Source: Actinocrinis puniceicyclus (lineage in GTDB: Bacteria; Actinomycetota; Actinomycetes; Streptomycetales; Catenulisporaceae). From it: a DNA stretch of 58,210 bases. Both the position numbers and the translations under genes were made by a program. Below are positions 4,698-44,027 of the stretch, piece after piece. Within the stretch, counting starts at the first letter, position 1, and each line of letters opens with the position of its first letter. The stretch covers positions 1 through 58,210 of the forward strand of contig NZ_JAGSXH010000029.1 of NCBI RefSeq assembly GCF_018283645.1, read 5' to 3'. A model generated the notes under the pieces. It was not told where the DNA came from and did not search any database. It saw only the letters and a program-made list of their open reading frames with translations.

Positions 4698-6104
4698 ATG
4701 GTGCGCGGTCTTGTCTCGGCGCTGCGTCGACTCGAGCAGGTGAGCAGGCCGGGCGACGCGCAGTTCGCCGCCGCGCTGCGCGCGCGTTGGGCGGGCCTGC
4801 CCGAGCACGTCAAGACGCCCGGGCAGGTCCTCGGGCGGCACGCGGTGGGTTGCGAGGGCACGCACGGGGTGTTCCCCAAGTGCAATCTCGCCTGCACCCC
4901 GTGCTATCACTCGCGGGATGCGAACCGGGTGCGGGTGGACGGGGCGCACACCCGGGAGAACGTCGAGGCGCAGATGCGGCTGCTGCGCCGGTTGCGCGGC
5001 CCGCGCGCGCACGCGCAGTTGATCGGCGGCGAGGTCACCCTGCTCGACCCGGACGATCACGCGGCGGCGCTCGAGATCATGCGTCGGCACGGGCGGGAGC
5101 CGATGAGCTTCACCCACGGCGACGTGGACTACGACTACCTGCGCCGGCTCGCGCTGGGCCCGGACGGGCACCGCCGGTTGCGCCGCCTGTCGTTCGCCGC
5201 GCACTTCGACATGTTCATGTTCGGTCGCCGCGGCATCGAACGCCCGCCGGACGAGGCCTCACTCAACCCGTATCGGGCCGCGTTCACCGCGAAGCTGCGC
5301 CGACTGCGCCGCGAGTGCGGGGTGCGCACGTTCGCGGCGCACAACATGACGGTCACCCCCGCGAACCTCGACCAGGTCGCCGAGGTGATCCGGGCGACGC
5401 GCGGCATGGGCTACGGGATGTTCTCGTTCCAGCCCGCGGCGTTCATCGGCGACGAGCGGCGCTGGCACGAGGCGTACCGGGACGTGGACGGTGACGCGGT
5501 GTGGGGCGAGATCGAGCGCGGCGTCGGGACGCGGCTGGACTACCGGATCATCGAGCACGGGGATGTGCGCTGCAACCGGGTCGCCTACGGGTTCTACGTC
5601 GGCGAGCGCTACATCCCGGTGCTCGACGGCGACGACGCCCGTGACTTGGCGGTGCGTGACGCCTTCTACCGGCACCTCGGCGAGGTCAACTTCTCCGGCA
5701 CGCCGACGCCCCTGCTGCTCGCGCAGCTTTCCCGGGTGGTGGCGCAGCATCCGACGGTCCTCGCCGTCGCGGCCGGATGGCTCGGGCGCACGGTGCGCCG
5801 CGCGGGAGTCGGGCGACTGCTGCGCCATCCGCGGCTGCGTCCGACCAGCTACGTAATGCATCGGTTCATGGACGCCGAGGATGTGGCCGAGGCCTGGCGG
5901 CTGATGGAACGCGGCGAGAGAAGCGAGGACCCGCGCATCAAGGAGACCCAGGAGCGGCTCTCGGCCTGCCACTACGCGATGGCCCATCCGCAGGACGGCA
6001 CGCTCGTGCCCGCGTGCGTGCAGCACAGCGTGCTCGATCCTGGCGAGAACGCCGCGCTGCGCCGGCTGCTGCCGATCGTCGAGGTACGCGCTCGGCGAAA
6101 CTAG
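4698..6104 (+). CDS. Radical SAM enzyme, first gene of the rSAM cluster
   Basis: A 468-residue protein with the radical SAM cluster motif CNLACTPC (Cys62, Cys66, Cys69), which binds the 4Fe-4S cluster that cleaves S-adenosylmethionine. An IGGEVTLL segment follows as the GGE motif. Further Cys residues near the C-terminus (SACHYAM, PACVQHS) could bind an auxiliary cluster. Homologues sit in actinobacterial genomes without an assigned reaction; the substrate is unknown. ATG 4698 is preferred to GTG 4695 because of the upstream TAGGGA. It begins a plus-strand run continuing with overlaps to 12005: the 70-residue gene starts 12 nt later, which suggests joint function. Confidence 0.85.
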   Translation: MVRGLVSALRRLEQVSRPGDAQFAAALRARWAGLPEHVKTPGQVLGRHAVGCEGTHGVFPKCNLACTPCYHSRDANRVRVDGAHTRENVEAQMRLLRRLRGPRAHAQLIGGEVTLLDPDDHAAALEIMRRHGREPMSFTHGDVDYDYLRRLALGPDGHRRLRRLSFAAHFDMFMFGRRGIERPPDEASLNPYRAAFTAKLRRLRRECGVRTFAAHNMTVTPANLDQVAEVIRATRGMGYGMFSFQPAAFIGDERRWHEAYRDVDGDAVWGEIERGVGTRLDYRIIEHGDVRCNRVAYGFYVGERYIPVLDGDDARDLAVRDAFYRHLGEVNFSGTPTPLLLAQLSRVVAQHPTVLAVAAGWLGRTVRRAGVGRLLRHPRLRPTSYVMHRFMDAEDVAEAWRLMERGERSEDPRIKETQERLSACHYAMAHPQDGTLVPACVQHSVLDPGENAALRRLLPIVEVRARRN

Positions 6105-6115
6105 AAAAGGATCCG

Positions 6116-6328
6116 ATGACCCACGATGACGAGGTGGAGGCGCTGATGCGGGTAGGTGTGATCAGCGGATCGGACGGCTACGAATGGCCGGGCCTGACCG
6201 GCACGGTTCCCCGCACGATCACCACACGCTACGGGCGCGGGCACGCGCGATTGTCGAACCACCTCGCGCACAAGGCGAAGGCGGACGCGCTCGCGCCTGC
6301 CGGGATCGTCTACCGGTTCGCGTCATGA
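6116..6328 (+). CDS. 70-residue protein of unknown function within rSAM cluster
   Basis: A small soluble protein with AAAAGG 5 nt before ATG 6116. It lies 12 nt after the radical SAM gene and overlaps the next start by 4 nt (ATGA), so it is co-translated with both. It has an acidic start, a middle part with GYEWPGLTGTVPRTITTRYG, and a His/Lys/Arg-rich end. There are no Cys residues and no membrane segment. It could be an accessory or substrate-binding protein. A peptide substrate (RiPP-like precursor) is possible but not supported by a leader/core pattern. I do not recognise a family. Confidence 0.7.
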   Translation: MTHDDEVEALMRVGVISGSDGYEWPGLTGTVPRTITTRYGRGHARLSNHLAHKAKADALAPAGIVYRFAS

Positions 6329-7002
6329 CCGGGGACGCGACGATTCTGGTGATGGCCAAGGCCCCTCTGCCCGGCCTGGCCAAGACCCGGCTGCATCCGC
6401 TGCTCGGACCGGAGGGCTGCGCCCGGCTCCAGGCGGCGCTGTCGCGCCACACGCTCGCCACGGCCCTGGCCACCGGCCGCCGCGTCGTGCTGGCCTTCGA
6501 TCCGCCGGATGCGCACAGCGAGATCAGCCGGCTGATCGACGGCCTCGGCGCCCTCAAGGCGGTCCCGCAGCGCGACGGGCACCTGGGTGAGCGGATGACG
6601 ACCGCGGCCGCGGACGCGCTGCCGGACGGCGGACCGCTGGTCGTGATCGGCACCGACGCCCCGGCCTTGACCGCCGGCCTGCTCGATCAGGCCTTCGCCG
6701 CGCTGGAAACGGCGCCCGCATCCGTGATCGGTCCGGCCCTCGACGGCGGCTACTACCTGCTGGGCGTGCGCTGGCCCGCACCGGACGTCTTCGCCATCGA
6801 CCCGGCGCTCTGGGGCGGCGAGCATGTAGCGGCGACGACGATGGCGCGGCTGCGCCGACTGCCGGGCTGCGTCACGCAATTGCCGACGCTGCGCGATCTC
6901 GACACCCCCGAGGACGCGACCGCACTGATCCGCGATCCCGCGTTACCGCCCGAGATCGCCCACGCCCTGGTCCCCTCGCGCACCCAGGCGGCCGGGCCGT
7001 GA
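6325..7002 (+). CDS. rSAM/selenodomain-associated transferase 1 (TIGR04282, DUF2064)
   Basis: A 225-residue nucleotidyltransferase/glycosyltransferase-A-fold protein. ILVMAKAPLPGLAKTRL at the N-terminus matches the DUF2064/TIGR04282 signature, with a central GTDAPAL (metal-binding DxD-like) and a GGYYLLG segment. The family resembles CofC-type nucleotidyltransferases and probably activates or transfers a sugar or small acid. It is classically paired with TIGR04283 beside radical SAM genes, as here. It overlaps both neighbours by 4 nt (ATGA and GTGA). Confidence 0.85.
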   Translation: MTGDATILVMAKAPLPGLAKTRLHPLLGPEGCARLQAALSRHTLATALATGRRVVLAFDPPDAHSEISRLIDGLGALKAVPQRDGHLGERMTTAAADALPDGGPLVVIGTDAPALTAGLLDQAFAALETAPASVIGPALDGGYYLLGVRWPAPDVFAIDPALWGGEHVAATTMARLRRLPGCVTQLPTLRDLDTPEDATALIRDPALPPEIAHALVPSRTQAAGP

Positions 7003-7778
7003 TCGAGACCCGACCAGCGGTCTCGATCATCGTGCCGACGCTGAACGAGGCGCCGCGGATCGCCGCGTCCCTTGCGCGGCTGCGGCGGGACTTCCCCGAC
7101 GCGGAACTGATCGTGGCCGACGGCGGCAGCACCGACGGCACCGCCGACCTCGCCCGGCCGCACGCCCACGTGATCGACTGCGAGCGGGGCCGCGGGCGCC
7201 AACTGCGGGCCGGCGCGGCCGTCGCCCGCGGCGAGGTGCTGTGGTTCATCCACGCCGACACGATCGTCGATCCCCGGGCGCTCGGACAGATCCGGGCGGC
7301 GCTGCTCGAACCGGCGGTGGCCGGCGGCGGCCTGTCGCTGCGCTTCGACCGCGATACCAGGGCGCTGCGTTTCCTGGCATGGTCCTCGAACCATCGCGCC
7401 CGCCGCCTCGGGCAGATCTTCGGCGACCAGGCGATGTTCGTACGCCGCGACGTGTACGCCGCACTCGGCGGATTTCCCGACTACCCGCTGATGGAGGACT
7501 TCGCCTTCTCCCGCCGGATACACCGTGCCGGACGGCTCGCCGTGCTGACCGCCACGTCCACGGCCTCGGCCCGGCGCTTCGAGGCACACGGCACCTGGCG
7601 GATGATCGCCTTCATGCAGGTCATCAAGGTCCTGTATCTCGCTGGAGTCGATCCCGCGCGGCTCGCCGCGCTCTATCGCGCCGGCCCGCCCCGACTACGC
7701 CCGCGGGCGCGCACCCGGTCCCGCACCGCCCCCATGCCCGGCTCCCCCGGCGCCCGAGAAGGTGTATCCGTTGACTGA
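6999..7778 (+). CDS. rSAM/selenodomain-associated transferase 2 (TIGR04283, GT2 family)
   Basis: A 259-residue family 2 glycosyltransferase: SIIVPTLNEAPRI at the start, VADGGSTDGT for nucleotide-sugar binding, IHADT as the DxD-like element, and GGFPDYPLMEDFAFSRR as the acceptor/catalytic region. The C-terminal part is short and basic with one hydrophobic stretch, so it may touch the membrane. It belongs to the group next to radical SAM genes in arsenosugar-type loci (TIGR04283). The GTG start overlaps the preceding stop; its own 3' end overlaps the MFS gene. Confidence 0.85.
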   Translation: MIETRPAVSIIVPTLNEAPRIAASLARLRRDFPDAELIVADGGSTDGTADLARPHAHVIDCERGRGRQLRAGAAVARGEVLWFIHADTIVDPRALGQIRAALLEPAVAGGGLSLRFDRDTRALRFLAWSSNHRARRLGQIFGDQAMFVRRDVYAALGGFPDYPLMEDFAFSRRIHRAGRLAVLTATSTASARRFEAHGTWRMIAFMQVIKVLYLAGVDPARLAALYRAGPPRLRPRARTRSRTAPMPGSPGAREGVSVD

Positions 7779-9213
7779 GACTCCGCGCACACCGCCGCCG
7801 TCCGCCCTCGGCGCGCGGCTCGACCGGCTGCGCTTCGGCCGCCGGCACACCGTGATCCTGCTGGCGTTGGGCGCCGGGTGGATGTTCGACTCCTTCGAGG
7901 TGCAGCTGTTCTCCAACGCCATCGGCCCGCTCGGCGACCACTTCCATGCCAGTGTGTTCGAGCGGGACGCGGTGCTCGCGGTGTGGCTCGGCGGGATACT
8001 TCTGGGCGCGCTGGCCGGCGGAGCGCTCACGGACCGGTTCGGGCGGCGGCGCATGTTCGTGCTCACCCTGCTGTGGTACGCCGGATTCACGGTTCTCACC
8101 GGCCTGAGTCCGGACCTCGCCGCCGTGTACGCCCTCAGATTCCTCGCCGCGCTCGGTGTGGGCGCGGAGTACGCGATCGTGAACGCGGCCATCGCGGAGT
8201 TCATGCCGGCCCGGGTGCGCGGTAAGGCAGCGGTGGCGGTGATGAACTTCTGGCCGCTCGGCGCGATCCTCGCCGCGCTGCTGGCCTACCTGCTGCTCGA
8301 CACGTTCGCGCTGGCGAGCGCGACCTCCTGGCGGTACCTGTTCGTCCTCGGCGGTCTGCTGGCGCTGGTCGTACTGTACTATCGCCGCCGCATCCCGGAA
8401 TCCCCGCGCTGGCTCGCCTCCCACGGCCGCGTCGAGGAGGCCGAACGCATCGTCGCAGACCTCGAATCCGCTGAGCCCGCCCACGAGGTGAGACAGAGTG
8501 CGGTGACCGGCGTGCTTGGCCCGGCACCGGCACCACCACCACCGCAGTTGCCGGTGACCACGGCGCTACGCGAACTGGTGCGCCGGCATCCCGGGCGCCT
8601 GGCGCTGGGGGCGGCGCTCGATCTGGCCGAGGCGTTCGGCTACTACGGCATCTTCGCGCTGCTCTCGGTGGTCGTTCTGACGAAGGTGCACATCCGTACG
8701 GCGCAGATTCCGTTCTTCTACATCCTCGGCAACCTCGGCGCGCTGGCCGGCGGGTTGATCGCGAGCCTGCTGCTGGACCGGGCCGGGCGGCGCGGCACGG
8801 TCGCGGGCGCGTACCTGGCCGCGGCGGCCGGGGTCGGGCTGCTGGCCTGGGCGACGGCCACCGGCTCGGCCGCCTGGGTGACCGCGGCGTTCGTGGTCTC
8901 CAACGGCGCCGCGACCGCGGCGTGGACCTCGGCGTATCCGACGTTCACCGAACTGTTCCCCACGCACCTGCGAGGTGCCGGGATCGGGGTGTCTGTGAGC
9001 GTCGGGCGGATCGGCGCGATCGTCGGCACGCTGCTGTTGCCCGACCTGGCCACCCGGCTCGGCGCCACCGCCTCCTACCTGCTGGTCATCGGATTCTGGC
9101 TGATCGGGGTCGGCGCCATCGGCCTGTACGCGCTGCGCGGCGGCCAGGAGGCGGCGGGCCGCCCGCTCGAATCGCTCGTCCCCGTACCCGCCCCGGCAGC
9201 CGCCGGGGCCTGA
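7771..9213 (+). CDS. MFS transporter (sugar porter/SV2-like)
   Basis: A 480-residue inner-membrane transporter with about 12 hydrophobic segments. It carries the MFS loop motif GALTDRFGRRRMF between helices 2 and 3, and a second DRAGRRG motif between helices 8 and 9. A long cytoplasmic loop (about residues 200-260) splits the two six-helix halves. TTG 7771 is preferred because AGAAGG lies 8-9 nt before it; the in-frame GTG 7762 overlaps that ribosome binding site. Its coupling to the transferases suggests it exports, or possibly imports, the product or precursor of this cluster. Confidence 0.85.
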   Translation: MTETPRTPPPSALGARLDRLRFGRRHTVILLALGAGWMFDSFEVQLFSNAIGPLGDHFHASVFERDAVLAVWLGGILLGALAGGALTDRFGRRRMFVLTLLWYAGFTVLTGLSPDLAAVYALRFLAALGVGAEYAIVNAAIAEFMPARVRGKAAVAVMNFWPLGAILAALLAYLLLDTFALASATSWRYLFVLGGLLALVVLYYRRRIPESPRWLASHGRVEEAERIVADLESAEPAHEVRQSAVTGVLGPAPAPPPPQLPVTTALRELVRRHPGRLALGAALDLAEAFGYYGIFALLSVVVLTKVHIRTAQIPFFYILGNLGALAGGLIASLLLDRAGRRGTVAGAYLAAAAGVGLLAWATATGSAAWVTAAFVVSNGAATAAWTSAYPTFTELFPTHLRGAGIGVSVSVGRIGAIVGTLLLPDLATRLGATASYLLVIGFWLIGVGAIGLYALRGGQEAAGRPLESLVPVPAPAAAGA

Positions 9214-9236
9214 CATCAGCACTTGGAGTCGCCCTC

Positions 9237-10910
9237 ATGCGGATCGCGGTTTCCGGAGGCCCCTACGGCAACCCCTACGCCCTGCGCGCATTCGTCGCCG
9301 ACGCGACGGCGCGTGGCGCCGAGCGCCTGTTCTGCCTCGGGGACCTGGGCGGGTTCGGCGCCGAGGTCGACGCCCTGTGGCCGATCATCAAGGACGCGGG
9401 TATCGAATGCATCGCAGGGAACTACGACGTGGCCATCGCCCGCGCCGATGCGGACTGCGGCTGCGGCTACCGCGATCCGCGCGACAACGCTTACGCGCAG
9501 CTGATCTACGACCACACCCTCACGCACACGAGCCGGCAGTTCGCCGCCTGGATGGGCGCCTTGCCCACCGAGCGGCGGCTGACGTTGCGTGGCCGCGACG
9601 TGCACCTGGTGCACGGCTCCCCGCTGGCGCTCAACGACTTCTGGTGGGAATCCCTGCCCGAGCACGAACACCGACGGCGCGCCGAGTCCAGCGGCGCCGA
9701 GGTGATCCTGTGCACGCACAGCGGCCTTCCGTGGATCCGGCGGATCGGCGACGCGCTCACGGTGAACGTCGGGGTGCTCGGCAAGCCCGCCAACGACGGG
9801 CGACGCGAGGTCCGTTACGCGATGCTCGACCTCGACGACGGGCACCCGCGGGCCGAACTTGTCCCGCTCGCCTACGACTGGCGCGCCCAGGCGGAGTCCA
9901 TGCGCGACGCCGGGCTGCCCGAGGCGTTCGTGGAGACCATCGAGACCGGCTGGTGGACCACCTGCCTCGAGTCCCTGCCCCCGCGTGAGCGCTCCCGCGG
10001 CCGCTACCACCTCTATCGCAGCGCCTTGCCAACCTCGTTCACCCCCTCCGGCGGCAGTTGGGGCGACCCTGAGACAGTGGCCGAGGACGAGCGCCCGGTC
10101 ATCGGGCTGTTCGGCTCGCCGTATTTCCCCGCCCGGCTGTGGATCTACACCAACTTCCACTGCAACCTGCGCTGCGACTACTGCGCGGTGGCCTCCTCCG
10201 CGCGGGCCGAGCCCCGCACCATCGGCCCGGAGGCGTTCACAAGCCTGGTCGATGAGGCGGTGCGCGAGGGCTTCGCCGAACTGTATCTGACCGGGGGCGA
10301 GCCGTTCCTGCACCCACAGATCATGGAACTGCTCGATGCGGCCAGCCGTGCCCTGCCCACCGTGGTGCTCACCAACGCGATGCTCACCGGAACCCGGCGC
10401 CTCGCCGGGCTCGCGGACCTCGCCGATCGCAAACTCATGATTCAGACCTCGCTCGACGGCGCACGTCCGGAGACACACGACGCGCACCGCGGCCGGGGCT
10501 CGCACGCCCGCACCCTCGCGGGAATCAGGCAGCTGATCGAGCTCGGCCTGCCCCCGCGCGTCGCACTGACCGAGACCCCGGAGAACACCGGCGAGATCGG
10601 CCAGGTGGCCGACCTGCTCGCCGGGCTCGGCCTGCCCCCTGCCCACTTCGCCGTCAGGCCCCTGCTGCGCCGTGGTTTCTCCCGGGAAGGCCGGGAGATC
10701 CAGGCCGACGCGAGCATCCCCGAGCTGACCGTGAGCGCGGACGGCCTGCACTGGCACCCCGCCGGCGCCGACCTGGCCACCAGCCCGGACATGCACCTGG
10801 CCCCCGCGGGCGCTTCGCTCGCCGAGGGCAAACGCCTGATCACCGAGCGGTTCCTGACCGCGCGCCTGGCCGACGCCAGCCTGCCCCGCCCCGTCCACTG
10901 CGCCATCTGA
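9237..10910 (+). CDS. Metallophosphoesterase-like / radical SAM fusion protein
   Basis: 557 residues. Residues 1 to about 240 match the calcineurin-like metallophosphoesterase fold (CLGDLGGFG with Asp36, AGNYD, HLVHGSP, LCTHSG). The usual N-terminal DxH metal motif (SDIHGN) is replaced by SGGPYGN, so one metal site may be lost. Residues about 295-500 are a radical SAM domain with CNLRCDYC (Cys309, Cys313, Cys316) and TGGEPFLHP. The tail is short and ends with a Cys near the C-terminus. The fusion implies that phosphoester recognition or hydrolysis and radical chemistry act on one substrate. The start ATG 9237 has GGAG about 12 nt upstream and fits the fold; upstream in-frame sequence overlaps the MFS gene. 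Confidence 0.85.
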   Translation: MRIAVSGGPYGNPYALRAFVADATARGAERLFCLGDLGGFGAEVDALWPIIKDAGIECIAGNYDVAIARADADCGCGYRDPRDNAYAQLIYDHTLTHTSRQFAAWMGALPTERRLTLRGRDVHLVHGSPLALNDFWWESLPEHEHRRRAESSGAEVILCTHSGLPWIRRIGDALTVNVGVLGKPANDGRREVRYAMLDLDDGHPRAELVPLAYDWRAQAESMRDAGLPEAFVETIETGWWTTCLESLPPRERSRGRYHLYRSALPTSFTPSGGSWGDPETVAEDERPVIGLFGSPYFPARLWIYTNFHCNLRCDYCAVASSARAEPRTIGPEAFTSLVDEAVREGFAELYLTGGEPFLHPQIMELLDAASRALPTVVLTNAMLTGTRRLAGLADLADRKLMIQTSLDGARPETHDAHRGRGSHARTLAGIRQLIELGLPPRVALTETPENTGEIGQVADLLAGLGLPPAHFAVRPLLRRGFSREGREIQADASIPELTVSADGLHWHPAGADLATSPDMHLAPAGASLAEGKRLITERFLTARLADASLPRPVHCAI

Positions 10911-10950
10911 CCCCCGCGAACCCGCCCTACAGGAAGGGGATGTCCCCGCG

Positions 10951-11259
10951 ATGAGCGAGACCGAACCCGCCGTCACCCTCTACACACGCCCAGGCTGCCC
11001 CTATTGCAGCAGGCTGCGTCGCGGCCTGAACGCCTCCCATCTGCGCTACCGGGAGATCGACATCTGGCAGGACCCGCAGGCCGCCGCATTCGTGCGCTCG
11101 GTCGCCGGCGGCAACGAGACCGTGCCCACCGTCGTGGTCGCCGGGCACGCCATGGTCAATCCGTCCGCCGCTCGCGTGCGCGCCGCGGTCTCCGAGCACG
11201 CCCCCGGGCAGTTGCCCGCCCAGACCAAGCGCAGGTTCCCGTGGCTGCGCGCGCGGTGA
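10951..11259 (+). CDS. Glutaredoxin/mycoredoxin-like protein
   Basis: A 102-residue thioredoxin-fold protein with active site CPYC (Cys16, Cys19) after VTLYTRPG, a cis-proline region ETVPTVVVAG, and a slightly longer C-terminal tail than usual (family about 80-90). In actinomycetes such proteins reduce mixed disulfides with mycothiol. AGGAAGGGGA precedes ATG 10951. It may keep the radical SAM enzymes or a thiol-bearing intermediate reduced. Its stop overlaps the GTG of the methyltransferase. Confidence 0.85.
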   Translation: MSETEPAVTLYTRPGCPYCSRLRRGLNASHLRYREIDIWQDPQAAAFVRSVAGGNETVPTVVVAGHAMVNPSAARVRAAVSEHAPGQLPAQTKRRFPWLRAR

Positions 11260-12005
11260 TCAGCCAGGCCTACCTACGCGCCTTCCATCAACGCCACCCC
11301 GGCATCACCGAGGCCGTACTCGAACGCGCCCGGGTCAACGGGATGACCGCGTACCAGTGGCTCGCCCACGCCGCGCCGGAGCATGGGAGAGTGCTGGACC
11401 TCGCGTGCGGCAGCGCACCCATGCGCGCTGCCCTCGGCCCGGCGGTCGACTACGCGGGCGTGGACCGGTCCCCGGCCGAACTCGCCGCGGGGCGCGCCGC
11501 GGGCGTCGACAGGCTCGTGCGGGCGGACGCAGCCCTGATGCCGATCGCCGACTCCAGCATCGACGCGGTCACCTGCTCCATGGCTCTGATGATCCTCCAG
11601 CCGCTCGATGTGATCCTCGACGAGATCCACCGCGTGTTGTGCCCCGGCGGGCTGCTGCTGGCCACCGTCCCCGGCACGCCCGGCCGGATCCCGCGCGCGA
11701 TCGCACTCGTCACGGCCCGCCTCCTGACCGGCGACCCGGCGTGGCAGAGCCCGAACACCGCCGCCCTGCGCGACCCGCGAGAACTGCTCGCCCGCCACGG
11801 ATTCGCGCTGCTCGACGACGACCAGCGCACCTTCACCTACCCGCTGCGCACCGGCGAGCAGGCCGGGCTGCTGCTCGACTCCCTCTACCTGCCCGGCCTC
11901 ACCCCGCGCGCCCGGCGGCGAGCCCTGCGGCTGATCAGTGCCCTGAGACTGGTTCGGGCCGGCGTTCCCATCCCGATCCGCCGCCTGCTGATCCGGGCCG
12001 GGTAA
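11256..12005 (+). CDS. Class I SAM-dependent methyltransferase
   Basis: A 249-residue soluble protein with the SAM-binding motif I VLDLACGSAPM, an acidic motif II (VDYAGVDRS) and RADAALMPIADSSIDAV, and the typical EIHRVLCPGGLLLATVP segment (Methyltransf_11). The C-terminal part is basic, with a predicted helical cap. The GTG start overlaps the glutaredoxin stop (GTGA). The substrate is unknown; context suggests methylation of the cluster product. It is not a recognisable ArsM: I see no Cys triad. Confidence 0.85.
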   Translation: MISQAYLRAFHQRHPGITEAVLERARVNGMTAYQWLAHAAPEHGRVLDLACGSAPMRAALGPAVDYAGVDRSPAELAAGRAAGVDRLVRADAALMPIADSSIDAVTCSMALMILQPLDVILDEIHRVLCPGGLLLATVPGTPGRIPRAIALVTARLLTGDPAWQSPNTAALRDPRELLARHGFALLDDDQRTFTYPLRTGEQAGLLLDSLYLPGLTPRARRRALRLISALRLVRAGVPIPIRRLLIRAG

Positions 12006-12818: not shown

Positions 12819-13109
12819 CTAGGCGTCTGCGGGTGGTTCCGGGCCGGTGGCTGCGAGTTGCTCGCCGAAAGAGCGCAGCCGCGCGAGCGCGTCGTCGGCG
12901 GGCTGCTGCCGCTGACCGAGCGCGTGTTTGATCGCGCGGTAGGCGGCCAGCTCCAGGCCGCACTTGCGGCAGTACTCCAGGTGCGCGGCCACCCGCTCGA
13001 CAGTCGCGTCGTCGACCTCGCCGTCGAGATACGCCTGGAGTTTGGGGCCGACGTGCATGCACTCGCGCATCTCCCGCATCCGCCGGGCTCGGTCGCTCAT
13101 CGCGCTCAC
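12819..13109 (-). CDS. Zinc-binding anti-sigma factor (RsrA-like, zf-HC2)
   Basis: A 96-residue protein with the ZAS motif AAHLEYCRKC (HxxxCxxC), which in RsrA-type anti-sigma factors binds zinc and senses thiol oxidation. No membrane segment, so a soluble anti-sigma factor. Its GTG start overlaps the stop of the upstream sigma gene by 4 nt, the standard arrangement for a sigma/anti-sigma pair. Expected role: holding the ECF sigma factor inactive until disulfide stress ejects zinc. Confidence 0.85.
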   Translation of the reverse strand: MSAMSDRARRMREMRECMHVGPKLQAYLDGEVDDATVERVAAHLEYCRKCGLELAAYRAIKHALGQRQQPADDALARLRSFGEQLAATGPEPPADA

Positions 13110-13678
13110 CGTCCGCTCCTGGTCGGCGCCAGCCCCGCCGCGGCCAGCCGGTCACGTATCCGCTTGCGGGCCCTGTGCAGTCTGCTCATCACGGTTCCCT
13201 CCGGCACTTCAAGCAACGTGGCCGCCTCCGCATAGGTAAGCCCGTCGATGTCGACCAGCTGCACCACCTGCCGGTGCTTGACCGGCAGCGCCGCGAGCGC
13301 CTCGTCCACCACCTTGTCGAACACCTGCTCCACGACCAGTTCTTCCGGCCCCGGGGCTGGGGCGGAAAACGGGCCCCGCCCCTCGTGCCGCTCGAGTTGC
13401 GCGTCCGGGTCGTCGAGCAGGTCGGGGCGCCGCCGACGGTGCCGATTGATCTCGGTGTTGCGCAGGATCGTGAGCAGCCAGGCGCGCGCGTGCGTACCGT
13501 CGAACCGCTCGACGGCCCGGTAGGCGCGTAGCAGTGTGTCCTGTACCAGGTCCTCGGCGTCCGCGGGCTGCGCGGTGATCGAGAGCGCGACCCGGTAGAG
13601 CACCTCGATCTCGGGCAGCACGTACCGTGCGAACGCTGCCTGCGCCCGCTCGTCGGCCGCAGCCGCGGATTGGTCCAC
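13106..13678 (-). CDS. ECF-type RNA polymerase sigma factor (SigR-like)
   Basis: 190 residues with sigma region 2 (DAEDLVQDTLLRAYR for core binding and -10 recognition, then HARAWLLTILRN) and region 4 (LTYAEAATLLEVPEGTVMSRLHRARKRI, helix-turn-helix for -35 recognition). Overlap with a ZAS anti-sigma gene and an upstream GGAAT-N19-GTT sequence resemble SigR/RsrA control of thiol-oxidative stress. GTG 13678 is the first in-frame start; no clear ribosome binding site is seen, and the putative promoter would give a nearly leaderless transcript. The redox genes on both sides suit such a regulon. Confidence 0.85.
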   Translation of the reverse strand: MDQSAAAADERAQAAFARYVLPEIEVLYRVALSITAQPADAEDLVQDTLLRAYRAVERFDGTHARAWLLTILRNTEINRHRRRRPDLLDDPDAQLERHEGRGPFSAPAPGPEELVVEQVFDKVVDEALAALPVKHRQVVQLVDIDGLTYAEAATLLEVPEGTVMSRLHRARKRIRDRLAAAGLAPTRSGR

Positions 13679-14476: not shown

Positions 14477-15889
14477 TCATCTGTTCCACCGCCGCCTCGC
14501 ACCGAGCAGGAACCTGACGACGCGGCCGGTGCCCGGGGCGGCGAGCCGGTCCGCGGCCTCGGCGAGAGCGGCGTTCCACGGCCCGTCCGCATACGTCGGG
14601 TAGGGATGGATCGTCGCAGCATACTGTGAGGCGCTCCAGCCGTGGCGCACCGCAGCGGCCAGATGCGCGATCGTCTCCCCGGCGCGCGGAGCCACCACCG
14701 TGGCCCCCACGATCCGACCACGCCGCCCGAGTACGAGCCGGGTGAACCCCTCGGTGCGCCCGTCGGCGACCGCACGGTCCACGCGCTCGTGCTCGAGATC
14801 GCGCACCCGCACGGGCCCGTGCCGTGCGTGTGCCTCCTGTTCGGTCACGCCGACCTGGGCGACCTCCGGGTCTGTGAACGTCACCGACGGCACTGCGTGC
14901 TCGTCGATCCGCCGACGCACGCCCAGCAGCATGGCGCTGACCGCCGTGGCCGCCTGGACCCCTGCCAGGTGGGTGAACGCGGAACTGCCGCTGACATCCC
15001 CGGCGGCGTAGATCCGCCGGTTGCTGGTGCGCAGCCGCGCGTCCACCTGCAGCCCGCCACGCTCGTCGGTCCGGACCCCCGCCGCATTCAGGCCCAGGCC
15101 CTCGATGTTCGCGCGGCGCCCGGTGGTCACCAGCAGGCGGTCGTACGAAAGTACCCCGACGTTCGTATACAGCGCGTCGTGATCGACGCGTTCGGCCTTT
15201 ACGCCGATGAGTACCTCGACTCCCTCGGTGGCCAGACGCTCCGCCAGCACCGCGGCCGCGCGCGGCTCCGCACGCGGCAACAGGCGGTCCATCGCCTCGA
15301 CGATGGTGACCTTCGCACCGAGCCGCGCGAAGGCCTGGCCCAGCTCGCACCCGATCGGCCCGCCGCCGAGCACCACCAGCCGCCCGGGCAGTTCAGTCAG
15401 GTCCCACACGGTATCGCTGGTCAGCGGCCGGGCTTCGGCGAGTCCGGGAATCGGCGGGAGCGCGGGGGAACCGCCGGTGGCGATCAGCGCGTACCGGAAG
15501 CCCACCTCCCGCGCGCCCACCCGGAGGGTGCGCGGGCCGGTGAAGTGAGCCTCGCCGCGGGCGACCTCCACTGCGTCCGTGGCGAGTGCCTCCGCGGAGT
15601 CGTGCGGCTCGATCTGCCTGATGGCCGCTTTCACCCGGGCCATCGCCTTCGCCAGGTCCACCGGCCCGCTCGCGGAAACCAGGCCGAGGTCCCCGGCCTC
15701 ACGCGCGGCCTGAACCTGCGCGGCGGCGTGCAGCAGGGCCTTGCTCGGCACGCATCCGGTCCACAGGCAGTCCCCGCCCAGGCGCCCGCGCTCGGCCAGC
15801 AGCACCCGCGCGCCGAACCGGGCGGCTAGGCGCGCGCCGGTCAGTCCGGCACTGCCGCCGCCGAGCACCACCAGGTCGTAACGATCCAC
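14477..15889 (-). CDS. FAD-dependent pyridine nucleotide-disulfide oxidoreductase (MerA-like)
   Basis: 470 residues: FAD-binding DLVVLGGGSAGL at the N-terminus, redox disulfide GGDCLWTGCVPSK, NAD(P)-binding VVLGGGPIGCELG, and the IYAAGDVSG second FAD motif, then the dimerisation domain. It resembles mercuric reductase/dihydrolipoamide dehydrogenase-like enzymes but lacks the N-terminal HMA domain and the C-terminal Cys pair needed for Hg(II), so mercury reduction is unlikely. The GTG start at 15889 is chosen because the Rossmann motif begins 4-5 residues later and GAAGG lies about 10 nt upstream. Substrate may be a low-molecular-weight disulfide or quinone. Confidence 0.85.
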   Translation of the reverse strand: MDRYDLVVLGGGSAGLTGARLAARFGARVLLAERGRLGGDCLWTGCVPSKALLHAAAQVQAAREAGDLGLVSASGPVDLAKAMARVKAAIRQIEPHDSAEALATDAVEVARGEAHFTGPRTLRVGAREVGFRYALIATGGSPALPPIPGLAEARPLTSDTVWDLTELPGRLVVLGGGPIGCELGQAFARLGAKVTIVEAMDRLLPRAEPRAAAVLAERLATEGVEVLIGVKAERVDHDALYTNVGVLSYDRLLVTTGRRANIEGLGLNAAGVRTDERGGLQVDARLRTSNRRIYAAGDVSGSSAFTHLAGVQAATAVSAMLLGVRRRIDEHAVPSVTFTDPEVAQVGVTEQEAHARHGPVRVRDLEHERVDRAVADGRTEGFTRLVLGRRGRIVGATVVAPRAGETIAHLAAAVRHGWSASQYAATIHPYPTYADGPWNAALAEAADRLAAPGTGRVVRFLLGARRRWNR

Positions 15890-16232
15890 GGATATCCAGC
15901 CTTCCACGCCGGGATAGGACGCGTGGGGAACCCGCCGGGCGGCAAAGTCCTTCCCCCGGGACGAAAAGCCCGCAACTGCGCCCGCCGTGCGCGATGCGCA
16001 TCGGGCGGTGGCGGAATGCTCCGGGGTAGCACCCGGGTTTCCGATGCGATGCGACATCTACGCGCTGCCGCGATCGGAGGCGTATGGCGCACCTGCGCGA
16101 GCGTGCCACGCGGACCCGTCCCGCGCGGCGCGGCAGAGTCGCGGGTACGGCGCCTTCTGGAAGGGTGTACGCGTCGAGCGGGTCAGGGACGCGGCGCAAT
16201 CCGGCCGATAGTCATATCAGGAGGTTGATTCG
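15890..16232. other. Divergent intergenic region between the two oxidoreductase genes
   Basis: 343 bp without a convincing gene. It must hold promoters for both divergent oxidoreductase genes. A strong AGGAGG is seen just before 16233; I found no clear shared operator. Confidence 0.5.
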
Positions 16233-17835: not shown

Positions 17836-20800
17836 CTACTCGTAGCCGAGGCGGATGTGCAGTGTGAGGCGCTTGCCGTCGCGCAGCACGGTGAACAGGA
17901 CGACTTCGCCGGGCCGGTGCGACTGGATCGCCTTGACGGCGTCCTCGGCCGAAGCCGGCTTGCTCGCGCCGATCGAGACGATCAGGTCGCCCTCGGCGAG
18001 CCCGCCGAGGTCGGCCGGCTCGCCGAGTTTGACCTCGGAGACCTCGACGGTGGGCGCGCCGATGCCGGACGGGGTCGTGTCGTGCACGGCGATGCCCGCG
18101 AGCGTGGTGCTGCCGGACGGGGCCCCGGCGTAGCCCATCGTGAGGTAGGTGGCGTAGATGTCGAGCAGGCCCGTAGGCAGGACCCGGGCCGGGCGGCCGG
18201 CGCCGGCGGCCCGGGCGAGGCCGAAGAGGGGCAGTTGGTGACTGTTGCCGACCGGCACGACCGGCGTCATCGGGCGTAGCAGCGTGTCGGGGTGCGCGTC
18301 GAGCGCGTCGAGCACGACGCCCCAGTCCGGCGTGGCCATCGGCGGCTGGGCGGAGCTGAGGCTCACCTGGTCCATCAGAACCCCGTCAGGGTGCTGCGAA
18401 AAGGCGATCGCCTGCAGGCGCACCACGGCGCTCTTGTCCGAGCCCTGCGTCGCGATCTCCGACTGCCAGGGCAGGCCCGCAGGCCTCGGTCCGTGCGGGA
18501 TGCGCGCGGCGGCGAAGCAGAACGCCGTGGTCGAGGCCGGGCACAGGAGGCTCGCCGGATAGACCGAGGTTCCGTACTCGAGGGTCACCGACATCTCCGG
18601 GGTCGGGTTCTGCGGCGGCATCACCGCGTACAGGTACCAGTCGTTCAGCGAACTCGGCGGTCCGTTCTTGGACAGCACCTGGTGGACGATGTTCCCGGTG
18701 CCCTGGATCCGTGGCGTCACGTAAAAGGTGCCCATGGAGCCGAGCAGCGTGCCCGGCAGCGTGCGCCCGCCGCCGAGATGCACGGTGGTCAGGACGGCGG
18801 ACGCGTCGTGCAGCAGCGTCTGGTCGTTCGGGGGAGCGTCCCCGTCGTCGTGCAGGCCGATCACGACGGCCAGCATCAGCAGGAGCGTGATGCCCGCGGA
18901 GAACCGGGCGAGTTTCCGCAGTCCCAGGCCCGCGAGCAGCAGCGCGCCTGCGCCGATGAGCACCAGTGCCGAGTCGGAGGAGAATCGTTTGCGCACGGGT
19001 GCGAGCCGGCCGAGCGCAATGGGCGAGCCGGTTTGTCGCGTCGAGTCGTTCTGTGCGGCGAGCAGCCGCGCGCCGATGCTCTCCTTCTCCCCGCGGATGC
19101 CGGCGACCAGGTCGGCCGGTTCGATGACCGTCGAGCCGCGCTGCGCGGCGAGCCGCTGGGCGGACTCGAAGGCCCGATCGAGGTCCCGCGTCACCGCCAC
19201 CCCGGGCATCCGGCCGATCGTCCTGGCCACCGCGCCGCGCGAGTACTCGGGGTCTGATGCTGGGGGCGAGCCCGCGCACTGGCCGGGCAGATCGAAGAAC
19301 ACGTCTCGATCAATGCCCACGAGCAGGTCGAAGGTCCCGAGCGCGCGGCTGCGCGTCATCGCGAGACCCGACCGGGTCGCGTTCTCCAACGCTTCTGCGC
19401 AACTCGGCATCCTGGCCACAGTGTTCGTGCGCTTGGCCGACGCCACAGCCGGCACCGCGGCCAGGACCCTCGACGGAACCGGATCCAGCTTGTCGGGCGT
19501 GCGCAGCCGGCGACCGAACACCTTCTCGCAGTAGTCGTGGAACGCCGCCGGCCGGCCAGTCTCACGCAGCGCGCGGCTCAGCGCGGTCTTCGAATCGCCG
19601 AGCAGCCCGTAGGCGAGGTGCTCGACACGGACCTCACGTTCGCCAAGGCCGGCGGCGATCTTCTCCGCCGACCTGAACGCCTCGGCTGTCAAGCGCGTCG
19701 TGCGCAGCGAGCGCCCGTCGCGCAACATCAGCTCCGCGATGCCTTCCGACTCTTCGGCATCCCGCAGGAGAAGACCGGTTCCCGCGTGATCGCGGTCGCC
19801 CATCACGCGGATGGGGGCGAACGTTCCACCGGCCGACGTGTGCACCGTGCCGGCAAGGTCGAGCGAGCACAGGACGGCTCGCGGCGCGTCCTGCAGCGCT
19901 GCCGAAACGGCGAAGGTCACCGCCGCGGTCCACGGCAGGCTGCAGCGCAGTTCGACCGGCTTGCGCTCCAAGACGCCGAGCAGCTCCTCGACCTTGACCC
20001 GCCGCAGGTTGACGAACGCCTCGGTTTCGGCGGACGCGACCTTCTGTGTAGTCCACAGCTCGGGCCGCGCTGCGCCCTTCCGGCCATCGGAGGCGACAGG
20101 AGCGGGACCGGTATCGGTATCGGTATCGGTATCGGGCGGACGAGTCGTCCACACCGTCAGATTGGCCCATTCGCAGGGCGCTGCGGAATCATGGCCCAGC
20201 TCGGCCCGCCTCGCCAGGATCGCGTCGCGCACCGCGAGCGCGAGGTGCGTTCCGCCGAGCGCCGCGGCTGAGGCACGGGCGAAGACCCGCGCCCCGGGGT
20301 CGACGACCGCGTTGTCCACCGGAGCCTGCCCGCCGAGCACGCTCTGCGCCCCGCCGATCAGACAAGCGGTCGGCAGACCGATCGGCTCGTCGCGCGTGCT
20401 GACGGTCACGTGCGCGGCCCAGCAGGCGTGCAGCACCACGTCGCGCGGCCATGCGATGCCGTACGCGGCCTGCACGGTGATGATCCCGCCACCGTTGAGC
20501 AGAATGCCGCGCGTGGCGGCGCGCCGTGCCGTCACGCCGTGATTGGAGATCGCGGCCAGGTCGTACTCGCGCCCGCACGTCAGCTGCGCGCGCATCTGCT
20601 CGCCATCACTGGTCACCACTGTTTCGACACCGTCCGGCCAGGCCGTCGCCAGTTCGCGCAGCGCACTGCGGAATTCGCCCTCGTATCGCGTGGGGCCGCA
20701 GTTGAGCAGCGCGAGCCTGGGCCGAGCACGCACCGGCGCCGGCGCGGCGTCGGGCGCGGGCAGCAGATTGAGGTTCGGCATCACCACCGCGGCGGCGTGG

Positions 20801-23118
20801 TCCACCAACAGGCTGCCGTCACTCAGCGGCAGCCCGGCGAACGGGATCAGCGAGATCGGACCGTCCGGCACGACCAACAACACGACCGGATCATCACTCG
20901 GGCGCCCACGCAGCAACGCGTCGAGATCGGGCGGCAGCAGCGCCGCGGCCAGCTCACGCCAGACCGGGTCGGACACGTCGCTGTACCGGTGCACCTCGGC
21001 GATCTGCTCGGCTTCACCGCTGTCGAGGGCGGCGAGAACACCACCGGGCTTGCGGATGGCAGCCACCTGGCGCTCGTCGTGGGCGAGGTCTGCGATCCTC
21101 GCTCGGTGCAGGCTGATCCGTTCCCGGGTCACGGTGACCGTCGTGATGTCCCAGCCGCCATCGCCGGCCGCGCAGTGGTAGTAGACAGCGACCCGGCCAC
21201 CGAGCCGATCGAGCACCGAACCGAGGTCGACCAGCTCGGGAATCAGGGTCTTGGCGAAGGCGCGGGAATACCGGTCCTCGAGCTGCGCGGTCAACGCGGC
21301 CGCGGCGGCCACGCGCTCCGGGTCATCCTGAAGGTCACCGGTGCTGAGCCCCCCATCCTCCAATGACACACGGCGTTCGGCCTCCGCATCCCGGTGACTG
21401 CGGACCAGTGCCTGCAGCTCATCGTCCTCGGTGCCGGCCGACGCGGCACGCAGCGCGTCGGCGAGCGCGTTGCGGTGGGTCTCCTCCATCAGCCACAGCG
21501 CCAGCTCCGCGGCGCGATCGCGCTGGAAGCGCACGCAGGTGGCGAGCACCTCGAAGACCTCAGTGTAAAAGGCCGCATTGGCCTCGATCAGCGAGAAGCG
21601 GCTCGCGCCGCCGGTGAGACGCCCGCGGGCGTACTCCATGCCGCGCAGCGAGAGCTGGAGTACGGACAGGGTGAGCGACTCCCGCTGCGCGGTGAGGGTT
21701 CCGGCGCGCAGCGCGCAGACCGCCGCCTTCGCTTGAATCAGCGCCCTGCGCGACCGCCAGCCGGTGTCGGTGAGGCGCTGCCCGGTCGAGAGGTAGGCGG
21801 CTGCGGCGTCGGCGAAGGCACCGAGGCCGGCGAGCCGGTCGGCGATCAGCTCCTCGGTCTGCGCCTTCACGACGTCGAGCTGCCGGGCCTCGGCCGGGGA
21901 CAGATCGGCGAAGCCGTAAGGGGACTGCATCGCGACGACCACATCGCGCAGGCACAACGCCTCGACCAGTGCGGCGCGCTCGTCGCGCCATGCCAGGTCC
22001 CTGATCGAGTTGAGCGACTGCCCCAGCGCCGCGGAATGCCGCCGGGTCCAGGCCAGGCGCCAGGTTCCGCGCGGCAGCGGCACATCACCCGGCTGCGCCT
22101 CGCCGCCTGCCAGGCGATCGAGGGCGCGACAGTCGTCGATCAGCACGCCAACCAGCCGTGGAGCGCGCCTCCCAGCATCCTTGGCCGCAGCGGCGGCCGC
22201 CAGTTGCGCGACAGCCAGGTCGTACTCGCCTACCGCGCGGCGGAACAGCGCCTCGGCGGCGAGGACTTCGGGCCGGCCTGCGAGCCCGGGGTCGGCCGCG
22301 TGCCGGTTCACCAGCCGCTCGGCGTGATCGAGGGCGTTGATCTTCAGCTCATAGTCGACGGCGGTCGCCCCGGCCCAGGCGAGCATCGCCTCGTCGCCAC
22401 GTCGGCGGAAGTACTGCTCCGCCTCCGCGAAGGTCTGCCGCGCGCGGGCCGTGTTCTCTACCGCGCCGACCGGAACGGTGACGCAGCGCCGTACATGCCG
22501 CCGCACACCGCGCCGCAGGGCCGCCCGTAGCGGAGGCCGGTAGCCCGCGCCGGTTTGCACGCGCTCGTCGGTCACCGAGAACAACAGGTAGCGCAGGAGC
22601 CAGACCCAGACTGCCGCCGCGATGCTCGGCGCGAACCTGCCGAACGCCGGCCCCGGCGCGAAGATCAGCACGATGAGCGCGAGCCCGGTGACCACGGCGC
22701 TGTACGCGACGCTGAGAGTCCCGGCGACCGCCGCCGGCTTCTGGCTCAGTTCGGCACGGGTGCGCGTACTCTGCGCGCGGCGTGCCGTACGCAGCAGGAC
22801 GATGCACGGAAACAACGCGACGGCGGTCGGATAGTACTCGGATATGTGCTGCCTGATGATCCACTGCTGCAGGCTGTCGCTGGACTCGTTCGCGTATGCG
22901 GTCAGGATGATCCCGCCCGGTCCGGTGGCCCACCACCACCCGGCTGCGAGCACGGGGACCAACACCAGGGCGTCGAAGCCGAAATGGCGGGTCATGTTGA
23001 CCAGGCGGAACATCCACACCGGGCGCACGAGCCGCGTCCCGAACAGGCGCGGGCGGGCCGGCGTCGAGACCTGCGGCGCTACTGGCTGCGAGTTCAAGAC
23101 TCCCCCTCCGAGTCGCAT
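17836..23118 (-). CDS. Giant membrane-anchored CHAT (caspase-like) protease with Clp-N-like repeats and C-terminal PDZ domain
   Basis: 1760 residues from ATG 23118. In order: several hydrophobic segments (about 47-62, 95-112, 130-155, 160-180); a long helical TPR-like region (about 215-600); a CHAT protease domain (about 640-985) with likely catalytic His860 (SNHG) and Cys899 (HACWA); a linker with Asp-Thr repeats; Clp-N-like helical repeats (about 1130-1210, 1235-1285, 1300-1350; LTAEAFRSAEKIA and VRVEHLAYGLLG resemble ClpA/C N-domains); a transmembrane pair (about 1380-1420); and an extracytoplasmic part ending in a PDZ domain (about 1670-1755; GEPADLGGLAEGDLIVSIG). CHAT proteases are caspase relatives used in programmed death and defence. 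A TTG start at 23097 has a much better ribosome binding site (GGAGGGG) and may be the true one. Divergent from an unknown gene 42 bp away. Confidence 0.8.
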   Translation of the reverse strand: MRLGGGVLNSQPVAPQVSTPARPRLFGTRLVRPVWMFRLVNMTRHFGFDALVLVPVLAAGWWWATGPGGIILTAYANESSDSLQQWIIRQHISEYYPTAVALFPCIVLLRTARRAQSTRTRAELSQKPAAVAGTLSVAYSAVVTGLALIVLIFAPGPAFGRFAPSIAAAVWVWLLRYLLFSVTDERVQTGAGYRPPLRAALRRGVRRHVRRCVTVPVGAVENTARARQTFAEAEQYFRRRGDEAMLAWAGATAVDYELKINALDHAERLVNRHAADPGLAGRPEVLAAEALFRRAVGEYDLAVAQLAAAAAAKDAGRRAPRLVGVLIDDCRALDRLAGGEAQPGDVPLPRGTWRLAWTRRHSAALGQSLNSIRDLAWRDERAALVEALCLRDVVVAMQSPYGFADLSPAEARQLDVVKAQTEELIADRLAGLGAFADAAAAYLSTGQRLTDTGWRSRRALIQAKAAVCALRAGTLTAQRESLTLSVLQLSLRGMEYARGRLTGGASRFSLIEANAAFYTEVFEVLATCVRFQRDRAAELALWLMEETHRNALADALRAASAGTEDDELQALVRSHRDAEAERRVSLEDGGLSTGDLQDDPERVAAAAALTAQLEDRYSRAFAKTLIPELVDLGSVLDRLGGRVAVYYHCAAGDGGWDITTVTVTRERISLHRARIADLAHDERQVAAIRKPGGVLAALDSGEAEQIAEVHRYSDVSDPVWRELAAALLPPDLDALLRGRPSDDPVVLLVVPDGPISLIPFAGLPLSDGSLLVDHAAAVVMPNLNLLPAPDAAPAPVRARPRLALLNCGPTRYEGEFRSALRELATAWPDGVETVVTSDGEQMRAQLTCGREYDLAAISNHGVTARRAATRGILLNGGGIITVQAAYGIAWPRDVVLHACWAAHVTVSTRDEPIGLPTACLIGGAQSVLGGQAPVDNAVVDPGARVFARASAAALGGTHLALAVRDAILARRAELGHDSAAPCEWANLTVWTTRPPDTDTDTDTGPAPVASDGRKGAARPELWTTQKVASAETEAFVNLRRVKVEELLGVLERKPVELRCSLPWTAAVTFAVSAALQDAPRAVLCSLDLAGTVHTSAGGTFAPIRVMGDRDHAGTGLLLRDAEESEGIAELMLRDGRSLRTTRLTAEAFRSAEKIAAGLGEREVRVEHLAYGLLGDSKTALSRALRETGRPAAFHDYCEKVFGRRLRTPDKLDPVPSRVLAAVPAVASAKRTNTVARMPSCAEALENATRSGLAMTRSRALGTFDLLVGIDRDVFFDLPGQCAGSPPASDPEYSRGAVARTIGRMPGVAVTRDLDRAFESAQRLAAQRGSTVIEPADLVAGIRGEKESIGARLLAAQNDSTRQTGSPIALGRLAPVRKRFSSDSALVLIGAGALLLAGLGLRKLARFSAGITLLLMLAVVIGLHDDGDAPPNDQTLLHDASAVLTTVHLGGGRTLPGTLLGSMGTFYVTPRIQGTGNIVHQVLSKNGPPSSLNDWYLYAVMPPQNPTPEMSVTLEYGTSVYPASLLCPASTTAFCFAAARIPHGPRPAGLPWQSEIATQGSDKSAVVRLQAIAFSQHPDGVLMDQVSLSSAQPPMATPDWGVVLDALDAHPDTLLRPMTPVVPVGNSHQLPLFGLARAAGAGRPARVLPTGLLDIYATYLTMGYAGAPSGSTTLAGIAVHDTTPSGIGAPTVEVSEVKLGEPADLGGLAEGDLIVSIGASKPASAEDAVKAIQSHRPGEVVLFTVLRDGKRLTLHIRLGYE
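20109..20132. repeat. Four-copy hexamer repeat inside the CHAT gene
   Basis: CGGTAT repeated four times; on the coding (minus) strand it encodes Asp-Thr four times, in the linker after the CHAT domain. A hexamer can expand or contract without breaking the frame. Confidence 0.9.
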
Positions 23119-37382: not shown

Positions 37383-37602
37383 GACCGCGGACCAAGAGGA
37401 CCGGCGACATGCGCGGCAAACTGCTCCCTGGGCATGATCTTGATCCATCGCCATGGGGCGCATGCCGCGATCCAGTTCAACCCCGTCTCGCGCTGTGCGC
37501 CCCGGGGAAATCGACCGTAGTGAACGGTTCACCTGCGGTTTGCGCGGCGCAGGACTATCGTAAGGCGCCGTTCGACCGTACCGGCTGGGGGGATTGATCG
37601 CT

Positions 37603-42481: not shown

Positions 42482-42646
42482 ATGCTGGAGGTCTGCCGCG
42501 CCAAGGATGTACCTGTTTACCTCGATAAAGCGGTGCGCGACCTCCTGGCTGAGGGCCGCGCGCTGGGTTCCTGGAAGCGGCCCCTGCTCAGTGGTGATGG
42601 CGCGCTCAGCGGAGCCTCAGCGTTTCGGCCAGAACCAGAGCGGTGA
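42482..42646 (+). pseudogene. Possible gene remnant between the YhaN-type and AAA genes
   Basis: A 54-codon open frame encoding MLEVCRAKDVPVYLDKAVRD and more; the frame is open further upstream. The first half looks like real protein, the second half overlaps the antisense end of the AAA gene. May be the tail of a lost gene. Family not recognised. Confidence 0.3.
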
Positions 42647-43798: not shown

Positions 43799-44027
43799 GC
43801 CCTCGACCGTAGGCGAAGATACAGACAGCCGCTCAGCGACCGTCAAACCAGCGGAACCGGCGGCCAACACGCGCCGCGCGCGGACGTGCCGCCACACCTT
43901 CAATCCGACCGTGCTGCTCCATGATCGCCATGACAGCCGGACGCGTCGGCCGCCGAGCGTACCCACGGTTCCCTGCCGCCGACGCAAATCGGTTTGCCCG
44001 GCGCCGGGTATCCGAGATGATCGGTGG

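Follow-up and report, generated by a model that had tools for sequence, protein, structure and literature searches.

A conserved actinomycete gene cluster combining a phosphoesterase–radical SAM fusion with arsenosugar-type glycosylation genes

The window analyzed here, a 58,210-nucleotide stretch of Actinocrinis puniceicyclus DNA (contig NZ_JAGSXH010000029.1), contains at positions 4698-12005 a gene cluster in which two radical S-adenosylmethionine (SAM) proteins, designated A and F, accompany transferases of families TIGR04282 (C) and TIGR04283 (D). With moderate confidence, we regard the cluster as encoding a variant, without ArsS, of the biosynthesis of arsenosugar-type compounds (organoarsenical glycosides), in which F, a metallophosphoesterase fused to a radical SAM domain, is predicted to be the likeliest enzyme forming the carbon–arsenic (C–As) bond. 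This arsenical reading is based on a phosphorylase of the ArsS-associated type in relatives of the cluster, on linkage of the arsenite methyltransferase gene arsM to these relatives, and on an ArsM–radical SAM fusion encoded beside TIGR04283. The earlier note on this DNA had found no recognizable ArsS or ArsM in the cluster, and this extends to the entire genome. No protein exceeded the ArsS (TIGR04167) cut-off of 300 bits; F scored about 49-51 bits and, at 51 bits, was itself the best match. Searches for ArsM in the genome returned generic methyltransferases and no close ArsM. Because the ArsS test failed, the cluster is a variant, and not a member, of the known ArsS-type arsenosugar pathway.

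Gene content and conservation of the cluster

The genes of the cluster and its conserved downstream neighborhood are the following.

4698-6104, forward strand: A, radical SAM protein of 468 amino acids (aa), with a radical SAM call and a CxxxCxxC motif
6146-6328, forward strand: B remnant, internally deleted gene for an MTAP-like phosphorylase, from protein and DNA alignment to intact B
6325-7002, forward strand: C, TIGR04282 CofC/MobA-like nucleotidyl/glycosyltransferase (162 bits; cut-off 134)
6999-7778, forward strand: D, TIGR04283 family 2 glycosyltransferase (232 bits; cut-off 182)
7762-9213, forward strand: E, MFS transporter (PF07690/PF00083), a presumed exporter, the direction of transport being an assumption
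9237-10910, forward strand: F, metallophosphoesterase (PF12850)–radical SAM fusion of 557 aa
10951-11259, forward strand: G, mycoredoxin-type glutaredoxin with a CPYC motif (TIGR02200, 93.7 bits; cut-off 89.5)
11256-12005, forward strand: H, class I SAM methyltransferase other than ArsM; closest model the DVU_1556 family, under cut-off
12819-13109, reverse strand: J, RsrA-like anti-sigma factor (TIGR03988, 32 bits, under cut-off; PF13490)
13106-13678, reverse strand: K, extracytoplasmic function (ECF) sigma factor, from profile matches
14477-16057, reverse strand: L, MerA-like FAD disulfide oxidoreductase (PRK06370, 445 bits, cut-off 620; MerA, 381 bits, cut-off 454)

Gene calls and profile matches recovered every gene that the earlier note had placed between 4698 and 12005. 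The coupling it described was also found for most neighbors, with ATGA/GTGA-type start/stop overlaps at 6325/6328, 6999/7002, 7762/7778, and 11256/11259; E and F are separated by 23 nt. The conserved neighborhood reaches further downstream, through J, K, and L, to 16057. A search for the same gene set in other actinomycetes, which the note had proposed, recovered it in Catenulispora and Streptomyces: the whole gene order is repeated in Catenulispora (loci L013/L020), and more than 20 Streptomyces loci keep the greater part of it. Orthologs of E occur in Catenulispora, Actinacidiphila, and a few Streptomyces, and homologs of H in 25 related loci. In comparison with Catenulispora, A, C, D, E, and F of the window copy are under purifying selection (dN/dS 0.22-0.37), with values of 0.60 for G and 0.45 for H. 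Given this conserved order and the low ratios of A, C, D, E, and F, the cluster is not a chance assembly. No published description of it was found in the open-access literature, including that on the Rv1681 radical SAM protein, on ynj/ydj genes in connection with selenium or arsenic, and on ArsS in Streptomyces.

The radical SAM partners of the sugar genes

The linkage of F with the sugar genes was examined in 49 A-centered loci longer than 20 kb (hereafter long loci) and in an independent sample of 396 genomes of the phylum. D and F were perfectly concordant in all 49 long loci, 24 containing both and 25 neither. Those with both usually also encoded B (20 loci), C (19), an FAD enzyme designated N (17), and L (23). 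Among the 396 genomes, ArsS was present in 8, TIGR04283 in 32, A in 10, and the full F fusion in 7. All seven F-fusion genomes encoded TIGR04283 (hypergeometric 1.2e-8, an indicative value only, as kinship and fragmented assemblies are ignored), although in one of them, G478, the two genes lay on separate contigs. ArsS occurred in none of the seven F-fusion genomes and in none of the ten A-bearing ones. Four of the seven F-fusion genomes encoded A and three did not; in one genome, G282, locus L190 holds E, F, C, D, L, B, and a DedA-like gene together without A. Since F occurs without A in these three genomes, and with B, C, and D at L190, the radical SAM protein that consistently accompanies the sugar genes is F and not A. 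The earlier proposal that other radical SAM proteins take the place of ArsS is supported, and the refuting outcome named in the note, homologs never co-occurring with TIGR04282/TIGR04283, did not arise: the co-occurrence of F with TIGR04283 is complete in both samples. Only F follows the sugar genes strictly; A is also found in many loci lacking TIGR04282 and TIGR04283. A as the sole substitute for ArsS is likewise disfavored, as it occurs in loci without sugar genes and F occurs with B, C, and D in its absence.

The N-terminal half of F is a calcineurin-type metallophosphoesterase, for which a fold search gave the asymmetric Ap4A hydrolase SapH and relatives from Pyrococcus and Sphaerobacter as the nearest structures; the nearest folds to the radical SAM half were BlsE and SkfB. 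The best model for the latter half was the Rv1681 family (NF049973), at 245 bits under a cut-off of 380. Besides this lower score, F differs from that family in carrying a metallophosphoesterase domain and an invariant C-terminal cysteine. Across 34 F proteins, C33, C74, C76, C159, and C243 in the phosphoesterase half are invariant and a sixth cysteine there, C58, is nearly so; the CxxxCxxC motif at C309/C313/C316 and the cysteine third from the C-terminus are also invariant.

Protein A is more distant from characterized enzymes. Its CxxxCxxC motif (C62/C66/C69) and four further cysteines (C52, C292, C424, and C440) are invariant in 37 homologs. Profile matches were very weak and limited to the TrsS, viperin, and Tes models. 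The AlphaFold model (pLDDT 85) is a radical SAM barrel that has no close solved relative and retrieved only generic radical SAM barrels in a fold search, and a sequence search against the PDB gave no significant match. Profile alignment of A with ArsS (hhalign) reached a probability of 19% over 51 columns, with no significant similarity beyond the cluster motif.

A search with A yielded 80 loci, mostly actinobacterial, from Streptomyces, Catenulispora, Pseudonocardia, Actinomycetospora, Geodermatophilus, Rhodococcus, and other genera. In the 25 long loci without D and F, its usual partners are a CDP-alcohol phosphotransferase and a YnjBCD-like ABC transporter with a permease, an ATPase, and a binding protein of YnjB type (PRK11622, 435 bits; cut-off 203). 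Loci L076, L088, L091, L074, and others of this kind (A at 10001) combine these genes with DedA-like and MerA-like reductase genes; this set is widespread with A in actinobacteria. We presume its counterpart to be the ynjBCD-ynjF and TVP38/DedA group of Escherichia coli, for which only the YnjB/PRK11622 and UptA/DedA matches were tested. The ynjBCD-ynjF-like set is present in non-sugar A loci and is generally missing from loci that have TIGR04283 and F. In a tree of A, the sugar and non-sugar contexts are each strongly clustered, with 5 changes against about 21 in shuffles, and neither forms a single clade. The most constant neighbor of A is L (45 of the 49 long loci), and K lies close to it in 21. 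Because A loci split into those with and without D and F, A and L form a broad core, of which the B, C, D, and F sugar line is one of two partner sets.

Phosphorylase, ArsM, and the proposed pathway

The 70-codon open reading frame (ORF) at 6116-6328 is a phosphorylase remnant that retains 60 of about 262 codons and is readable from 6116. What survives, in frame, of the 262-aa protein is its residues 1-27, a short internal stretch, and the extreme C-terminus, and the stop/start coupling to C is preserved. Intact B occupies the same position in Catenulispora and Streptomyces. In five genomes of the phylum sample (loci L173-L176 and L192), the gene order is TIGR04283, ArsS, and phosphorylase, and intact B and the phosphorylase adjoining true ArsS have 43-47% identity (about 230-254 bits), compared with about 95 bits for B against solved MTAPs. 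B and the ArsS-adjacent phosphorylase share motifs such as FDD(L/I)(Y/F)(F/Y)xxNRLPxG, (H)V(N/D)GPRFN, SQTxGPE, and DYANGV. Relatives of the cluster thus encode an intact, orthologous phosphorylase of the ArsS-adjacent type. A search of the window's genome found no second copy, and contig C333 has one weak phosphorylase-family match (TIGR01694, 75 bits), a generic enzyme that might act in trans for the lost B. Sequencing or assembly error behind the deletion is possible, but the reading frame and the coupled stop/start are kept.

Similar losses occurred elsewhere. In Streptomyces sp. H27-C3 (L037:11381-12160), an independent in-frame internal deletion affects B, and C is also internally shortened; as in B of the window, the termini are kept. 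Actinomycetospora loci lack both genes. Given these cases, B and C constitute a dispensable part of the cluster. The window copy is reduced, with B deleted and ArsM and N missing. Its pathway may be completed by unlinked enzymes, be partly decayed, or lead to a different end product.

In 16 Streptomyces loci, an intact ArsM-like gene lies within 10 kb of the cluster, which makes arsenic more probable as its theme than an unspecified small molecule. All 16 ArsM sequences retain the cysteines of SACC/TACC, FYGCGSP, VSNCV, and VGECL, which we take from known ArsM enzymes to be arsenic-binding residues, as well as a C-terminal CC. Across the order, a close ArsM was present in 5 of 197 genomes and in three of these lay within about 9 kb of A. 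At the Streptomyces locus L200, the ArsM frame (G060:C1:7863808-7864974) contains one in-frame TGA, which may reflect a frameshift, an early stop, or another cause. Furthermore, in a genome without ArsS, TIGR04283 adjoins a 712-codon gene encoding an arsenite methyltransferase fused to a radical SAM/SPASM protein (L179:7330-9465, reverse strand). This pairing means that the TIGR04283 glycosylation module associates with more than one type of radical SAM protein. The fusion ends in ...FHCNCALLT, and a comparable but unfused SPASM protein, encoded between TIGR04283 and TIGR04282 (L181:10501-11985), ends in ...FHCACVLTTNDECKKDCS.

From these gene sets, we infer arsenic as the substrate, the individual reactions, including those of A and F, and their order. 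Arsenic would be reduced with thiol systems involving the mycoredoxin G and the MerA-like L, and methylated by ArsM where this enzyme is present. F would then join a SAM-derived 5'-deoxyadenosyl group to arsenic, in the manner of ArsS, an arsenic-adenosylating enzyme (Cheng et al. 2021, cited by PMC12159101). Its phosphoesterase half may hydrolyze a phosphate ester or a nucleotide intermediate, and A probably performs a second radical step together with L. Phosphorolysis by B would strip adenine to give an arsenic-bearing 5-deoxyribose-1-phosphate, the CofC-like C would activate this sugar phosphate, D would transfer the activated sugar, and E would export the product. The succession of phosphorylase, nucleotidyltransferase, and glycosyltransferase corresponds to the logic of aminoribosylation with 5-amino-5-deoxyribose in muraymycin-type antibiotics. 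A broader proposal, which we put forward tentatively and rate at somewhat below an even chance, is that actinomycetes possess a second, independent radical route to C–As bonds, in which F, helped by A, replaces ArsS and feeds the phosphorylase/TIGR04282/TIGR04283 line to yield organoarsenicals not yet isolated.

Competing explanations and known systems

Several observations weigh against an organoarsenical pathway of this kind. The alignment of F with ArsS covers only the shared radical SAM core (135 columns), and F lacks the cysteine-rich C-terminus of ArsS. A is not specific to the sugar genes, which are missing from 25 of the 49 long loci, and most D-bearing long loci lack E and G. B, C, or both are missing or degraded in Actinomycetospora and in loci L030, L037, L039, and L050, so their steps are not universal, and B is deleted in the window copy itself. 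Apart from the genome's lack of ArsS and ArsM, the cluster contains no other arsenic gene, and among ten ORFs scanned in the flanks of three Streptomyces loci, no arsenic resistance gene besides ArsM was recognized.

Alternatively, the radical SAM proteins could modify a non-arsenic substrate, with B, C, and D recycling the by-product 5'-deoxyadenosine into a 5-deoxyribosyl glycoside. Salvage of 5'-deoxyadenosine into a bioactive molecule is described in PMC8102628, A and F are found together with B, C, and D, and the ArsM-free genome of the window would be in keeping with such a role. However, B groups with the ArsS-adjacent phosphorylase, 16 loci have a linked ArsM, and the TIGR04283 family adjoins both ArsS and an ArsM–radical SAM fusion; we consider recycling rather unlikely. 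It is also conceivable that A makes the C–As (or another element–carbon) bond and that F acts in later tailoring or phosphate hydrolysis, given that A has extra invariant cysteines and an always intact CxxxCxxC motif, adjoins L, and lies near ArsM in Streptomyces. The many A loci without sugar genes, the combination of F with B, C, and D but not A in G282, and the insignificant similarity of A to ArsS render this assignment distinctly unlikely.

A pathway for selenium, mercury, a different thiophilic element, or a novel thiol, controlled by a thiol-sensing sigma factor, would agree with the RsrA-like anti-sigma factor, the mycoredoxin, and the MerA-like reductase, and with the weak matches of H to DVU_1556 and of A to TrsS, which is listed as a selenoprotein family (PMC13188914). 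Nevertheless, ArsM with all its arsenic-binding cysteines is linked in 16 loci and no selenium gene was recognized among the scanned cluster proteins, and we hold this to be quite improbable. Finally, a ribosomally synthesized and post-translationally modified peptide (RiPP) cluster, with the 6116-6328 ORF as precursor and maturation by A and F, might be suspected because that ORF is of precursor size and because sactipeptide maturase models match the radical SAM portion of F (StsB at 80 bits, far under the cut-off of 625). This ORF was rejected as a precursor peptide because it aligns as a remnant of a phosphorylase whose intact homolog has 262 aa, which largely refutes the RiPP explanation and makes it scarcely credible. 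The earlier note had envisaged a variant pathway to a glycosylated, methylated small molecule or peptide; the coherent ArsS-less, arsenosugar-type gene set sustains the variant pathway, and the peptide is dropped, as the sole small ORF is the phosphorylase remnant.

The organoarsenical reading places the cluster nearest to the ArsS-type arsenosugar locus (ArsM, ArsS/TIGR04167, phosphorylase, and TIGR04282/TIGR04283), with which it shares TIGR04282 and TIGR04283 proteins above cut-off and, in its relatives, the orthologous phosphorylase and, in 16 of them, ArsM. It differs in having two other radical SAM proteins, one phosphoesterase-fused, in a genome without ArsS, in the mycoredoxin, MerA-like reductase, and ECF sigma factor, and, in the window, in lacking an intact phosphorylase and ArsM. 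Arsinothricin biosynthesis (arsQML) to our knowledge involves no glycosyltransferases, and its ArsL transfers a 3-amino-3-carboxypropyl group, unlike the step proposed for the cluster. The likeness lies in the use of a radical SAM enzyme to form a C–As bond (cited in PMC12159101). The ArsL model was not among the matches listed for A, nor among the best 25 of 64 families for F. The bisenarsan (bsn) cluster of Streptomyces is likewise an actinomycete organoarsenical pathway, but it is reported to use the EPSP-synthase-like BsnM and no SAM-dependent enzymes (PMC12159101); no BsnM-like gene was seen in the present cluster. In the literature covered, enzymatic C–As bond formation is ascribed to ArsM-type methyltransferases, to ArsS and ArsL, and to the bsn route, which does not depend on SAM. 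If the proposed role of F is true, a further type of C–As-forming enzyme would be added, and new organoarsenicals would be predicted in soil bacteria. The ArsS-less cluster is conserved, with ArsM attached, in named, culturable Streptomyces, among them Streptomyces tardus P38-E01 and S. alboflavus NRRL B-2373. For annotation, the label 'arsenosugar biosynthesis glycosyltransferase' borne by TIGR04282 and TIGR04283 does not imply ArsS.

Away from the cluster, contig C385 of the same genome (C385:1788-2399; locus L002) has a 628-residue open frame with another TIGR04282-like domain, which scored 112 bits and fell short of the cut-off. Other features of the window are listed below.

17836-23118, reverse strand: domains of CHAT protease, Clp_N-like, and PDZ type in a 1760-aa protein, from domain matches
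37594-42329, forward strand: SbcCD-like pair of a metallophosphoesterase and, after it, an AAA_27/SMC-like ATPase
44372-46288, forward strand, and 42617-44035, reverse strand: gene with an AbiEii nucleotidyltransferase-type toxin domain and a nearby AAA_21 ATPase gene
55837-56604, forward strand: 255-aa ORF ending in a CdiA C-terminal domain (contact-dependent inhibition type toxin)

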